This document shows, piece after piece, positions 1 to 6,501 of a stretch of DNA of 6,501 bases (positions within the stretch are counted from its first letter, which is position 1; each line of letters starts with the position of its first letter). Source of the stretch: Lachnospiraceae bacterium (GTDB lineage Bacteria > Bacillota_A > Clostridia > Lachnospirales > Lachnospiraceae); assembly GCA_024691045.1 (NCBI GenBank), contig JAILOC010000138.1:1-6501 (forward strand). Reading direction: 5' to 3'. The notes under the pieces were generated by a model. The model ran no database searches and was not told the DNA's origin. It saw nothing but the letters and a program-made list of their open reading frames with translations. The position numbers were made by a program, and so were the translations under genes.

Positions 1-15
1 CCGTCCCCCTGTTTC
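1..15. repeat. 15-base dispersed repeat, copy 1 (possibly truncated by the window edge)
   Basis: CCGTCCCCCTGTTTC occurs here and again, exact and in the same orientation, at 2416-2430. This copy lies 20 bases before the hisA start and begins at the first base of the window, so the element may extend further left. Bases after the repeat differ between copies. A 15-mer match is not expected by chance in 6.5 kb. From memory, GGGACGG/CCGTCCC-type sequences are scattered as REP-like elements in many Firmicutes genomes; I cannot confirm that this one belongs to them. Confidence 0.6.
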
Positions 16-34
16 ACAGCTTCAAGGATAGATT

Positions 35-2860: not shown

Positions 2861-2889
2861 GTGTCAACGAGCCTTGTATCGTGTATAAT
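2861..2889 (+). promoter_or_regulatory. Sigma-A promoter of the GGDEF-STAS-ATP-grasp-MATE operon
   Basis: A perfect -10, TATAAT (2884-2889), lies 17 nt after GTGTCA (2861-2866), which matches the -35 consensus at four of six positions. The start point would be near 2896, leaving a leader of about 25 nt. A small inverted repeat, ATGAA-GTGA-TTCAT (2891-2904), spans the presumed start point. The -10 is convincing and the -35 is weak, so an activator may be involved. Confidence 0.6.
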
Positions 2890-2921
2890 TATGAAGTGAT
2901 TCATCATATCGGGGGGTATTT

Positions 2922-4142
2922 ATGGATTATGAGAAGATCATCAGCGATTTTGTAAAAAATCGCGCCGGAGAATTCATCATTACCGACAGACAGGGAAAGA
3001 TACTCTATCGAAACAGAGTAGAGAATTTCTCCGATGAACAGTGGTCGGCGTGGTCTGCGTTCAATATTGATACGGAGACGATCGATCACGAAGAAGACTG
3101 GGAGATTTCAGACAGAGCCGGTGGCAATTATTACACAGCCCGTTCCCTTCCCGTTACTCAGGACGGAAACGAGGTGATATTGCATCATGTCTATAATACC
3201 AGTCAGTACGCAACACTTCTGCGTGACGTTTCGGGCTATCTTAAGGATTGGAGAGAACTGAGTGCTTTCCAGACGGCAATGCTGGAGAAGCTTTCGGGTA
3301 ACTACGAATCCTGTCTGCCGGTTGTTCTTAAATATTTCAAAGTTTCAAGTGTCGTTATGTATATAGGCCGCGGCAGGAAGATGGAGAGACATCTTCTTGA
3401 TAAAGAGACCAAATCTATACAGAGCGCACGCATCGAAAGAGAGGATGTTTTCGACGCCACCAAGGGTGAGTTCAGAAAGCTTCCGGGTCTCGGTGACAAG
3501 GATTATCTTTGTTACATCTGTGACAGTGCCATTCACGGTACCGATTATTCACTTTACCTGTATGCCGAAGGTCTTGAGGATGATGACAGCTTCAGCATGC
3601 ATTACAACGTTATAAAGCTGTTCATTGAAAACGGATTGCTGCGTGAACAGATCACTTACGAAAGCGAGCACGACAAACTTACCGGTCTTTACAACAAGGG
3701 CAAGTATATGTCGATGCTTTCAGATTTCATGCCCAAGCAAAGCCAGGTTGCCATTTACAATATGGACGTCAACTATCTCAAGAGGACCAACGACAATCTC
3801 GGACATGAAGCGGGAGATGCACTTTTGGTCAAGGCAGCCAGAAGTCTTCAGGCTGTTGAGAGGGAGAATGTCTACGGCTTCCGTATGGGCGGAGACGAGT
3901 TTATGCTCCTTGGCTGGAACATGACCGAGACGGAAGCACAGAAGCTTAAGAAGGACTGGGAAGATGCCCTTGCCAGACTCAATGAGAACAAGGAAGAAGT
4001 CGAGTGTGTTATCGCATGCGGTCTTGCTTACGGCAAGGACGAATTCGATCTGAAGGAACTTCTTAAACTTGCGGACGACCGCATGTATGAGAATAAAGTA
4101 GCAATTAAATTGTCACGGGGAGAGGATCCTAACGCCCGGTGA
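2922..4142 (+). CDS. GGDEF diguanylate cyclase with N-terminal PAS/GAF-like sensory region
   Basis: The 406-aa product should make cyclic di-GMP from two GTP. Its C-terminal domain (about 248-395) is intact: HDKLTGLYN (250-258), metal-binding Asp282 in NMDVNYLKRTND (280-291), GHEAGD (294-299), the signature RMGGDEF (321-327) and DDRMYENK (385-392). The product-inhibition I-site is broken: the RxxD five residues before GGDEF reads RENV (314-317), so feedback by c-di-GMP is probably lost. The N-terminal part (about 1-90) resembles a PAS fold (EFIITDRQGKILYRN, 17-31). Residues about 110-240 look like a GAF-type domain, both weakly conserved. I see no transmembrane segment and no EAL domain, so it appears soluble and synthase-only. 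A G-rich ribosome binding site (2911-2916) sits 5 nt before the ATG. It is first in a four-gene operon and is divergent from the YerC-like gene. Confidence 0.93.
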   Translation: MDYEKIISDFVKNRAGEFIITDRQGKILYRNRVENFSDEQWSAWSAFNIDTETIDHEEDWEISDRAGGNYYTARSLPVTQDGNEVILHHVYNTSQYATLLRDVSGYLKDWRELSAFQTAMLEKLSGNYESCLPVVLKYFKVSSVVMYIGRGRKMERHLLDKETKSIQSARIEREDVFDATKGEFRKLPGLGDKDYLCYICDSAIHGTDYSLYLYAEGLEDDDSFSMHYNVIKLFIENGLLREQITYESEHDKLTGLYNKGKYMSMLSDFMPKQSQVAIYNMDVNYLKRTNDNLGHEAGDALLVKAARSLQAVERENVYGFRMGGDEFMLLGWNMTETEAQKLKKDWEDALARLNENKEEVECVIACGLAYGKDEFDLKELLKLADDRMYENKVAIKLSRGEDPNAR

Positions 4143-4164
4143 TCATATAAAAAAGGAGAACAAC

Positions 4165-4464
4165 ATGACTATCGACAAAACTCTTGAAGGCACCAAACTT
4201 GAGATCTCTCTTGAAGGAAGACTTGATACCATGACAGCGCCCCAGCTTGAGGAAGAGGTCAAGAACAATATCGAGGGCATCAAGGAGCTTATCTTCGATC
4301 TTAAGAATCTTGCGTATGTTTCATCCGCCGGTCTCCGTGTGCTTCTTTCCGCTCAGAAGATCATGAACAAGCAGGGAAGCATGACTATCAGGAATGCCAA
4401 TGAAGAAGTTATGGAGATCTTCGAGGTCACCGGTTTCATCGATATTCTGAATATTGAGGAGTAA
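4165..4464 (+). CDS. STAS-domain anti-sigma factor antagonist (SpoIIAA/RsbV-like)
   Basis: This 99-aa single-domain STAS protein has LEISLEGRLDT (12-22), LIFDLKNLAYVSSAGLRVLL (42-61) and a C-terminal FEVTGFIDIL (86-95). The serine in the SSAGL loop (Ser53/Ser54) occupies the site phosphorylated in SpoIIAA and RsbV. Family knowledge: unphosphorylated STAS protein binds a partner kinase/anti-sigma factor (RsbW/SpoIIAB type) and releases its target; phosphorylation switches this off. No kinase or phosphatase is encoded in the window, so its partners are unknown. AAGGAG (4153-4158) precedes the ATG. The gene follows the GGDEF gene by 22 nt with no terminator, so the two signalling proteins are made together. 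Confidence 0.93.
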   Translation: MTIDKTLEGTKLEISLEGRLDTMTAPQLEEEVKNNIEGIKELIFDLKNLAYVSSAGLRVLLSAQKIMNKQGSMTIRNANEEVMEIFEVTGFIDILNIEE

Positions 4465-4474
4465 TCCGGTTTTT

Positions 4475-5620
4475 ATGAATACTTTACCCTCAGGCTTTCA
4501 GGTCTTTAAAGACAATCTCTATACGATGATCACCGGAAAGTATCATGAAGGCAGCACCAGCCTTGATCTTCTTAACAATGCGGCTGTAATGCGTCTTTCA
4601 AGGTCCATTACCCTGCCTTCGTTCAAGGGTATTCCGGAGCTTACTCCCGAGCAGAAGAAAGCCGTGGAGGAATTCTACCGTCCGTATGTGCGTCATATGG
4701 ACGGAAAATACCATCGCCTGTATACTTACCGCTCGGGCGGAAAATTCTATCCGGAATATATTCCGGAAGATTTTTATTTTATGTATGTAGACAGGTTCTA
4801 CAATGACAGGCATGAATCCTGCTACATGGATAATAAGTGCTACTATCACAAGCTTTTCCCCGATACCAGACAGCCTCGGACAATTGTGATGCGTGTCGGG
4901 AAAAACTGGCTTGATGAAAAGGGAACGCTCCTTACCCCCGCGGAAGTCAAAAAGCGCATCATGGCGGAAGATGAGATAGTGCTTAAACAGGCGGTGTTAT
5001 CCGAGGGCGGATTCGGTGTTCACTTCATCTCGGGTGATAACAAATTTGATGAATTCAGAAAGGTGCTCCGCGGCATAAGTACCGATGTGATAATCCAGGA
5101 GCCCATAAAGCAGCACGCCGATATGGCCGCGCTTAATCCTTCATCGGTAAACACCATCCGAATCATGACATGGATCGACGGAACCGAGGTCAAAGTGCTT
5201 AGGGCGATGTCAAGGATAGGCGTCGGCGGAGACCGTGTCGATAACAGCTCACACGGCGGAGTCATCTGCGGGATAGGTGAAAACGGCCGGCTGACCGAGA
5301 CCGGAGTATTCCATGACGGACGTCAGAGTAAGACCCATCCCGAACTCGGATACAGCTTCGGCGATAAGAGGCTTGTTTATATCGACAAAGCATATGAGCT
5401 TGCCAAGAAAGCACATCCTTCGATAGGCCATTTCAGACTGGTGGGATGGGATGTTGCGATCGATGAGAACGGTGAAGCCGTACTTGTTGAAGTCAATTTC
5501 ACCCTTTGCGGTATCAATGACATGCAGGTTACCTGCGGACCTCTTTTCGGTTCCGATACCAAAAAGATGCTTGATGAAGTATTTAAAGGAAAGAAGGCCA
5601 AGTTCTCGACTTTACTATGA
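4475..5620 (+). CDS. ATP-grasp enzyme of the sugar-transfer-associated family (ATPgrasp_ST-like)
   Basis: This 381-aa protein has ATP-grasp features in its C-terminal two-thirds: a probable ATP-binding lysine in IVLKQAVLSEGGFGV (168-182), IIQEPIKQH (206-214), the family signature NPSSVNTIRIMTW (221-233), HGGVICGIG (260-268), GWDVAID (324-330) and metal-binding LVEVN (337-341). This pattern matches proteins annotated 'sugar-transfer associated ATP-grasp', found in capsule and exopolysaccharide loci. ATP-grasp enzymes usually form a carboxylate-amine or related bond via an acyl phosphate, but the substrate of this family is not established. The start is ambiguous. TTG at 4454 would overlap the STAS gene and lacks a ribosome site. 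ATG at 4475 follows AGGAG (4457-4461) at a long 13-nt spacing and is preferred. It overlaps the next gene by 4 nt, implying translational coupling. Confidence 0.85.
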   Translation: MNTLPSGFQVFKDNLYTMITGKYHEGSTSLDLLNNAAVMRLSRSITLPSFKGIPELTPEQKKAVEEFYRPYVRHMDGKYHRLYTYRSGGKFYPEYIPEDFYFMYVDRFYNDRHESCYMDNKCYYHKLFPDTRQPRTIVMRVGKNWLDEKGTLLTPAEVKKRIMAEDEIVLKQAVLSEGGFGVHFISGDNKFDEFRKVLRGISTDVIIQEPIKQHADMAALNPSSVNTIRIMTWIDGTEVKVLRAMSRIGVGGDRVDNSSHGGVICGIGENGRLTETGVFHDGRQSKTHPELGYSFGDKRLVYIDKAYELAKKAHPSIGHFRLVGWDVAIDENGEAVLVEVNFTLCGINDMQVTCGPLFGSDTKKMLDEVFKGKKAKFSTLL

Positions 5621-6501
5621 ACTACGACGACAGTTTTTTACGCAGACAATATCTGATCAATCTTTTCCCGATCATGTTCTCTATATTGGGAGGAACGATC
5701 AACGCTCTGATCGACAGTGTCTTTATCTCTCTTGTACTCGGAAAGGACGGACTCAGTGCAGTCACCCTGTCGATGCCCGTATACCTCGTACTGTGCAGTC
5801 TCGGTGCTCTCATTGCTTCGGGCGGAAGCCTGCTTTCCGCACGTGAAGCCGGCAAGGAGAATATCAAGTCGGCAGTTGAGTATTATCACAGTTCTCTGAC
5901 GCTTACCTTTATATGCGGAGTGCTTTTTTCCGCATTTGCATTTTTCTGCAGACCGCTTTCAGATCTGCTTGCACAGGGAAGTGTGTTGAACGAATATATC
6001 TATCAGTATATATTCGTATCCCTTTTGGGCTCGCTCTCTTTTATGATGCTTTATTCTCCGGTTTTCTATCTCCAGCTTGCCGGAAAACGCAAGGAGATAA
6101 CCATGATGACATTTATCATGGTGAGCCTGGATACCATACTTGATGCGGTTCTTCTTTTCATTTATCCGATGGGAATAACCGGTGCAGCGATCGCAAGCGT
6201 TGCTTCCACACTGATCGCATGTATTTACGGGTTTGCATGTCTTAACAGGAATGGATCGGATTACAGGTTCTCTTTCAAAATGATAGGTGTCAAAGGTACG
6301 GGATCCATTATCCGTTTCGGAAGTCCGACCGCACTCGGCAATTTCTATGATGCGGTAAGGCTGCTCATTATCAATGCCCTGATACTTAAGATAGCAGGAG
6401 TCAGCGGTGCTGCCGTTTGGGCAATATTAAATACGCTTTCGGAGCTGTCACTGATCATTGTATCCGGAATCCCGCAGGCTGCGGCACCCATGACCGGAGT
6501 A
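5617..6501 (+). CDS. MATE-family efflux transporter, N-terminal part (runs off the window)
   Basis: The reading frame stays open for 295 codons to the last base, so the gene is 3'-truncated by the window; MATE proteins are usually about 440-460 aa. It begins with ATG inside the ATGA overlap with the ATP-grasp stop. MATE features include LFPIMFSILGGTINALIDSVFIS (16-38, with the conserved Asp33), the GKDGLSAVTLSMP motif (42-54) and an AGGK/REAGK-like loop (76-80). MGITGAAIASVAS follows at 185-197, and GSPTALGNFYD opens the second repeat (235-245). Several hydrophobic helices are evident, for example about 97-112, 128-152, 162-182 and 186-208. MATE pumps export drugs or metabolites by Na+ or H+ antiport and belong to the MOP superfamily with polysaccharide flippases. 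Tight coupling suggests it may export what the ATP-grasp enzyme makes (inference). The C-terminus and any fused domain are outside the view. Confidence 0.9.
   Translation, partial: MNYDDSFLRRQYLINLFPIMFSILGGTINALIDSVFISLVLGKDGLSAVTLSMPVYLVLCSLGALIASGGSLLSAREAGKENIKSAVEYYHSSLTLTFICGVLFSAFAFFCRPLSDLLAQGSVLNEYIYQYIFVSLLGSLSFMMLYSPVFYLQLAGKRKEITMMTFIMVSLDTILDAVLLFIYPMGITGAAIASVASTLIACIYGFACLNRNGSDYRFSFKMIGVKGTGSIIRFGSPTALGNFYDAVRLLIINALILKIAGVSGAAVWAILNTLSELSLIIVSGIPQAAAPMTGV

Follow-up and report, generated by a model that had tools for sequence, protein, structure and literature searches.

A predicted partner-switching cassette of rumen and gut Clostridia whose MATE exporter carries an RsbW-like domain

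Introduction

The control of sigma factors by partner switches is textbook knowledge, and MATE exporters and GH3 enzymes, too, are already known. The present work deals with a group of genes that appears to bring these elements together. The DNA analysed, hereafter called the window, is the 6,501-nucleotide forward strand of positions 1 to 6,501 of contig JAILOC010000138.1, from a Lachnospiraceae bacterium (assembly GCA_024691045.1). Its last four genes encode a GGDEF protein of the diguanylate cyclase type, a STAS protein, an ATP-grasp ligase and the first part of a MATE transporter. We propose, with a probability of roughly 0.5, that a partner switch gates this MATE exporter and that the exported compound is an amide made by GH3 and ATP-grasp enzymes.

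In the Rsb and SpoIIA systems, as described in excerpts of PMC8256260, a phosphatase dephosphorylates the STAS protein and a kinase rephosphorylates it. The cassette studied here resembles the SpoIIAA/SpoIIAB/SpoIIE and RsbV/RsbW/RsbU systems of Bacillus in that a STAS-only protein bearing a conserved serine, a GHKL kinase with ATP-site residues and a SpoIIE-type phosphatase occur together in relatives of the window. It differs from them in that its recurrent genes include no recognised sigma factor and in that the transporter bears an additional, degenerate version of the kinase fold. In the SiaABCD system of Pseudomonas aeruginosa, a phosphatase, a kinase, a switch protein and a diguanylate cyclase are likewise linked (sections of PMC8457831; see also PMC7647112); in the cassette, however, the GGDEF gene is optional, the match to the SiaD model is far below its cut-off, and enzymes and an exporter are added. 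The SulP/SLC26 proteins are also membrane transporters bearing a module of the anti-sigma/anti-anti-sigma type, which in that case is a STAS domain (excerpts of PMC8256260), whereas here it is the kinase-like partner that the MATE protein bears, STAS being encoded separately. The bacterial GH3 enzyme OlsH, which according to portions of PMC12493201 converts a free fatty acid, ornithine and ATP to N-acyl-ornithine, shares recognisable motifs I-III with the GH3 proteins of the relatives, but its neighbourhood is different and a text search of the main text of PMC12493201 returned neither MATE nor ATP-grasp. Among the titles and opening lines of abstracts listed from the open-licence literature, none dealt with a MATE protein carrying an RsbW-like domain or with this gene set, none brought together three or more of MATE family, SpoIIE, STAS domain and GH3, and none combined HATPase_c_2 with MatE.

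The results described below were obtained by computation: how the cassette is composed and ordered in relatives, which fold is predicted for the transporter domain, the loss of its ATP-site residues and the statistics of its linkage to SpoIIE.

Results

The C-terminal domain of the MATE transporter

The MATE gene of the window is cut after 295 codons, whose product is 97% identical over 295 amino acids to P0125, a protein of 574 amino acids with a C-terminal RsbW-like domain. The MATE protein of L001 (the loci of relatives are numbered L001 onwards) is likewise 574 amino acids long; it displays PF01554 in two stretches and its hydrophobic peaks end at residue 426. With 10-11 hydropathy peaks in L001 and P0125, the architecture of the family, two MatE repeats and about 12 transmembrane helices, could be recognised, the window itself covering the first repeat only.

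An alignment of 33 MATE C-termini matched an alignment of 13 stand-alone HATPases of the same cassettes with an hhalign probability of 97.3 (E 2e-11, 119 columns). In a second pair of alignments the MATE C-termini reached a probability of 97.5 against the HATPase profile, versus 0.3 against the STAS profile. The AlphaFold2 model of the domain had a predicted local distance difference test score (pLDDT) of 89.8 and a predicted template modelling score of 0.84. When this model was compared with the PDB using Foldseek, the best 19 matches were all anti-sigma/serine-kinase entries (TMq 0.64-0.78), comprising UsfX, SpoIIAB, RsbW and the sigF-anti-sigma complex, with SiaB-SiaC at rank 38. The MATE C-terminal domain is thus predicted, at the level of a structural model, to fold like SpoIIAB/RsbW (GHKL). 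When the C-terminal region was compared with 5.8 billion proteins, in a search that admits only lengths similar to that of the query, the 32 hits were without exception MatE proteins of 554-603 amino acids.

The N-box Asn and the G1 Asp of the ATP site are both present in 17 of the 17 stand-alone cassette HATPases. Of 21 wider relatives of the MATE domain, 18 retain the pair, the exceptions being L113, L156 and L165. The two residues are lost from the MATE domains of the ATP-grasp clade (0/33), which thereby lack the ATP-binding residues required for kinase activity. The simplest reading of these sequences is that the ancestral domain looked like any GHKL domain and that it degenerated in the window's clade.

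Wider family and linkage to SpoIIE

The profile of the MATE C-terminus matches 39 of the 391 genomes of the class, and its weaker matches include frames of stand-alone HATPase size. Linkage was computed on the 24 best sites, weaker matches being left out as many are stand-alone proteins. Wider regions were read for 20 of the 24 sites and for G027 and G051 (genomes are numbered with G); G002 is identical to L002, and G308:C30 was left out. All 20 regions hold MATE proteins with the C-terminal domain, and PF13581 was found above its cut-off next to MatE in six of the eight wider MATEs, out of 21, that were scanned with Pfam.

A SpoIIE gene lies within 6 kb of 14 of the 24 domain-bearing MATEs versus 1 of 122 ordinary MATEs of the same 22 genomes, with a Fisher p of 2e-12 that is too small because several genomes seem closely related and the 24 sites are therefore not fully independent, and that is only a guide since the ordinary list consists of best matches and G002, G051 and G027 lie in GH3-type cassettes. 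The proportions are 10/24 versus 0/122 within 3 kb and 16/24 versus 4/122 within 10 kb. The 122 ordinary MATEs are the best matches among the matches listed, and SpoIIE matches below 49 bits were left out.

The neighbours of these wider MATEs are diverse. Gut Clostridia possess nonribosomal peptide synthetase (NRPS) clusters with a terminal reductase, which are producers of dipeptide aldehydes and pyrazinones. Genes of this reductase-ended type (condensation, adenylation, carrier and terminal reductase) stand beside the MATE+HATPase fusion genes of L155 and L158, unlike the cassette of the window, which has ATP-grasp, and in relatives also GH3, in place of NRPS. The same NRPS cluster is found in L157 and L159, and in L164 an adenylation-carrier-reductase gene adjoins the domain-bearing MATE. 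In addition to its NRPS genes, L158 has a STAS gene and a SpoIIE/HATPase gene. Elsewhere the neighbours are of other kinds, as in L147, with a HAD phosphatase and a PHP protein, and in L163, with a sodium:solute symporter. Near the MATE fusion genes of L147, L153 and L162, a single protein is matched by both the STAS and the HATPase profiles; in L147, Pfam places a phosphotransferase-like APH domain between the two.

Conservation of the cassette in relatives

Relatives were collected with an alignment of the window ATP-grasp and 26 of 163 hits (at least 120 listed) in a collection holding one genome per species; 88 loci were obtained and 80 kept. On a map made with hidden Markov models (HMM), the MATE gene is linked to ATP-grasp in 38 of the 80 loci. 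The other 42, mostly more distant relatives, have no MATE hit by the rule used in tabulating this map.

The order of the window, HisA-M23-bactofilin-YerC-GGDEF-STAS-ATP-grasp-MATE, is common to L001, L002, L005 and L006. Beyond the MATE gene, these four loci continue with GH3, a membrane-anchored SpoIIE phosphatase and an RsbW-like HATPase. Pfam assigns PF03321, PF23571 and PF23572 to the GH3 protein of L001 and PF07228 to its SpoIIE protein; the HATPase is assigned PF13581 in L003 and was recognised by HMM hits elsewhere. Where 5.5 kb or more of downstream sequence was available (22 loci), GH3 and SpoIIE are always present (22/22 each) and HATPase is present in 18. Upstream, in the 27 loci with at least 2.5 kb, STAS occurs in 14 and GGDEF in 9. 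In relatives, a kinase of the RsbW type and a phosphatase of the PP2C type (SpoIIE), for which the original prediction had asked to look, are therefore encoded downstream, which supports its placing of a partner switch beside a biosynthesis/export pair.

The order GGDEF-STAS-ATP-grasp-MATE was found in nine loci (L001-L006, L022, L029 and L034), with the ATP-grasp gene doubled within it in L029 and L034, and is hence not confined to one strain. The ATP-grasp and MATE genes overlap by ATGA in 21 of 31 direct pairs. Two ATP-grasp domains are present in 11 of the 38 MATE-linked loci (L023-L026 and L028-L034). Gene order nevertheless varies: several loci start with MATE, L035 starts with GH3, and L113 reads STAS-GH3-MATE-SpoIIE-HATPase with no ATP-grasp hit. 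GH3 taken alone matches 19 of the 196 genomes of the order, 18 of them over the cut-off. Of these GH3 loci, read over 2.6-3.9 kb, only L087, L102 and L112 are cassette-like, and L093 combines GH3 with STAS and SpoIIE in divergent orientation; most GH3 genes of the order sit in other contexts.

We read the window as holding the opening part of a cassette conserved in rumen and gut Clostridia, (GGDEF)-STAS-ATP-grasp-MATE-GH3-SpoIIE-HATPase. From its relatives we infer that the GH3, SpoIIE and HATPase genes and the C-terminal domain of the MATE protein are also present in the genome from which the window originates.

Genes and signals of the window

The features of the cassette part of the window are the following.

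2861-2889, + strand: promoter-like site GTGTCA-17-TATAAT, -10 box kept in relatives, -35 box not
2922-4142, + strand: GGDEF gene, 406 amino acids, diguanylate cyclase type (PF00990, E 3.3e-25), RMGGDEF motif intact, no transmembrane helix by hydropathy
4165-4464, + strand: STAS gene, 99 amino acids, STAS-only protein of the anti-anti-sigma type (PF01740 and TIGR00377 above cut-off)
4475-5620, + strand: ATP-grasp gene, 381 amino acids, ligase (ATPgrasp_ST, PF14397, E 1.6e-34)
5617-6501, + strand, cut by the window end: MATE gene, first 295 codons of a MATE-family transporter (PF01554)

All four genes exceed their Pfam cut-offs (GGDEF, STAS, ATPgrasp_ST and MatE). The original prediction had described four genes on the same strand behind one promoter, and both coordinates and Pfam agree with it: the GGDEF and STAS genes are separated by 22 nucleotides and the STAS and ATP-grasp genes by 10, and the ATP-grasp and MATE genes share a 4-nucleotide ATGA overlap. 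The ATP-grasp gene was started at ATG 4475, which matches the nearest relatives, as opposed to TTG 4454 of the open reading frame list. The promoter-like site is present before GGDEF as predicted; its TATAAT -10 box is identical in the six aligned upstream regions (window, L001, L002, L004, L005 and L006), while its -35 box varies among them. An internal terminator or a neighbourhood unique to one strain had been named as grounds for abandoning the operon. None of the three gene junctions holds a terminator-like match, those detected on the + strand of this stretch being inside the ATP-grasp and MATE genes, and the nine loci mentioned above dispose of the second point.

The gene located 5' of GGDEF belongs to the YerC family (TIGR02531) and lies on the opposite strand. 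The intergenic region between the two contains an inverted repeat, AGATAAA-N10-TTTATCT (2792-2815), which is kept in all six aligned genomes and is maybe the operator of a YerC/TrpR-like regulator. Further upstream (990-2343), an M23 peptidase gene stands immediately 5' of a bactofilin gene, and the pair is kept in L001-L006. The sequence CCGTCCCCCTGTTTC is present twice in the window (1-17 and 2413-2432) and, of the 80 loci, L001 and L006 contain it as well; it looks like a dispersed intergenic repeat.

Switch proteins and the GGDEF enzyme

The STAS protein of the window remains below the cut-off of the SpoIIAA equivalog model. It is a STAS-only protein in which SSAGLR, conserved in 13 of 13 aligned STAS proteins, includes Ser54, which we take by comparison with SpoIIAA to be the candidate phosphoserine. 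Its sequence is consequently that expected of a putative phosphorylatable switch protein. The other two partners are encoded beyond the window, in relatives. There, the stand-alone HATPases, with the N-box Asn and G1 Asp described above, have the sequence features of a GHKL serine kinase, and the SpoIIE proteins belong to the PPM/SpoIIE phosphatases (PF07228, E 4.8e-44 in L001). The metal-site motifs GGDF and ADVSGKG are found in all 28 SpoIIE sequences that cover them, out of 31 aligned. A hydropathy scan revealed two N-terminal peaks about 180-205 residues apart in 30 of the 31, so that the signal is probably perceived outside the cell; three proteins display a third peak and L037 a single one. 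The scan for a cognate sigma factor, which covered recurrent cassette genes only, recognised none.

The GGDEF motif is intact in nine of nine orthologues. The enzyme is not of the SiaD type, scoring 76 bits with NF038266 against a cut-off of 290. Cyclic diguanylate (c-di-GMP) had been proposed as a controller of the operon. We rejected it as core controller and regard it as an add-on, because GGDEF is present in only nine of the 27 loci with sufficient upstream sequence; by analogy, the enzyme may add a SiaD-like branch in the lineage of the window. In L004 (2765-4306) GGDEF and STAS share a single reading frame of 513 codons whose GGDEF tail is unlike that of L001, which indicates either a gene fusion or an assembly indel.

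Enzymes and candidate product

The GH3 protein of L001 is similar to GH3.12 and JAR1 of plants (E 1e-28). In a set of 30 aligned sequences, which includes L059 (not MATE-linked) and the divergent second GH3 of L031, motifs I (SG[TS]), II (SE) and III (G[LF]YRY) are found in 29, 28 and 29, respectively. The relatives, in which alone this gene was seen, would accordingly encode a GH3 amido synthetase, judging from motif content.

The model of the window ATP-grasp (pLDDT 90.6) matches RimK, D-Ala ligases (Ddl) and a Streptomyces ATP-grasp peptide ligase with a TM of about 0.4, which suggests a resemblance to peptide/amide ligases at the fold level only; a PDB sequence search with the same protein gave no match. 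The designation 'sugar-transfer' given initially to this enzyme proved to be no more than a Pfam label. Scanning of recurrent cassette genes, the other neighbours being covered in part, did not bring out the glycosyltransferase neighbourhood associated with such a role. Distant relatives of the ATP-grasp gene adjoin a glycosyltransferase (L036) or amino-acid enzymes (L043). An envelope polymer as first choice of product was dropped, since the scan of recurrent cassette genes recognised no glycosyltransferase and the ATP-grasp model is like peptide/amide ligases at the fold level. The small conjugated metabolite proposed as the other possible product fared better, with GH3 in 22 of 22 loci and NRPS genes beside some wider MATEs. 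Taken together, the sequences favour amide-bond products over sugar polymers for the cassette of the window.

The two ATP-grasp domains of L024 (2441-4687) are carried by a single polypeptide of 748 amino acids, and such double proteins suggest two successive ligations. In L043 and about 18 other loci, mostly from Bacilli and Clostridia, a distant ATPgrasp_ST gene belongs to a conserved cluster with a pyridoxal phosphate decarboxylase-like protein, a PALP enzyme, an arginase-family protein, a second ATP-grasp ligase and a radical SAM protein, whose composition points to an amino-acid-based pathway.

Discussion

The proposed mechanism can be summarized as follows. From its family membership, the GH3 enzyme would adenylate a carboxylic acid and couple it to an amino acid or an amine, and on the same grounds the ATP-grasp enzyme would add one further amide bond. 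The MATE protein would carry the amide product across the membrane. SpoIIE, with a probable outside sensor region between its two hydrophobic helices, would dephosphorylate STAS, and the stand-alone RsbW-like HATPase would put the phosphate back. The most likely output of the switch is the MATE protein itself: unphosphorylated STAS would dock on its C-terminal domain and gate export. Docking is proposed because the domain combines the predicted SpoIIAB/RsbW fold with lost ATP-site residues and because, with no sigma factor recognised in the recurrent cassette genes scanned, it is the remaining conserved partner. The diguanylate cyclase would be an extra input or output in the lineage of the window.

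A number of observations weigh against this scheme. The main ones, which argue against a self-contained switch, are that 13 of 27 loci lack STAS within 2.5 kb of the block and that 4 of 22 lack the kinase (L017, L028, L030 and L032), so that either the partners are encoded elsewhere in some species or the domain acts differently. Likewise, 6 of the 20 wider loci (L146, L155, L157, L159, L163 and L164) are devoid of any switch gene in the stretch read and, among loci with NRPS-type genes, STAS and SpoIIE are both present only in L158. The linkage statistics are weakened by the apparent relatedness of several genomes and by an ordinary-MATE list made up of best matches. Regarding the domain itself, the Pfam scan of the MATE proteins of L001, L113 and L165 did not report it, and a PDB sequence search with its profile returned designed repeat proteins and a sulfatase and no GHKL protein. 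Finally, motif III of GH3 displays ED instead of GD in L001-L006.

The absent STAS genes and the degenerate state of the MATE domain in the window's clade would also make sense if STAS, HATPase and SpoIIE formed an ordinary partner switch acting on a distant sigma factor or regulator, with the MATE domain as a STAS sink or structural tail and the biosynthetic genes as regulon. This would follow classical Rsb/SpoIIA logic (excerpts of PMC8256260). We nevertheless consider it unlikely, given that the recurrent cassette genes scanned include no recognised sigma factor and that the MATE domain is both conserved and linked to nearby SpoIIE genes (14/24 versus 1/122).

The position of GGDEF immediately 5' of STAS in nine loci, and in the same reading frame in L004, recalls SiaABCD, where SiaC binds and activates the cyclase SiaD of Pseudomonas (sections of PMC8457831). 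STAS freed by the phosphatase could similarly activate the GGDEF enzyme, c-di-GMP driving an envelope output and the MATE protein flipping an envelope amino-lipid, the precursor of which can come from a GH3 enzyme (portions of PMC12493201). Such a module is improbable, however, as 18 of the 27 MATE-keeping loci have no GGDEF, the SiaD model scores far below its cut-off and the joint frame of L004 may be an assembly indel. Detoxification, in which GH3 and ATP-grasp would conjugate an incoming plant or bile acid with amino acids and the MATE protein would expel the conjugate under stress control, accords with the conjugation of hormones and benzoates by the plant GH3 enzymes matched by name, with the many rumen and gut hosts and with the multidrug exporters of the MATE family, but is more doubtful still, since a dedicated multi-gene cassette, together with NRPS genes next to some wider relatives, suggests export of an own product.

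Gating of the MATE exporter by the partner switch is therefore retained as our preferred reading. The original interpretation is partly supported by the present results; the RsbW-like domain of the transporter, lying beyond the window end, had escaped it. More tentatively, and at somewhat less than even odds, the proposal may be extended to a class of Clostridia MATE proteins acting as output of a phosphorylation partner switch, in which STAS would gate the export of amide natural products, the ancestral kinase residues having been lost in the GH3/ATP-grasp clade to leave a pseudokinase receptor.

If true, a system known mainly from the control of transcription would exert protein-level control on the secretion of small molecules. 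It would constitute a new on/off control for an exporter of the drug type, and would tie environmental sensing directly to the release of metabolites in the gut and rumen. In genomic terms, the combination of MatE with HATPase_c_2, or with its degenerate form, offers a handle for amide natural-product clusters that have no NRPS genes.

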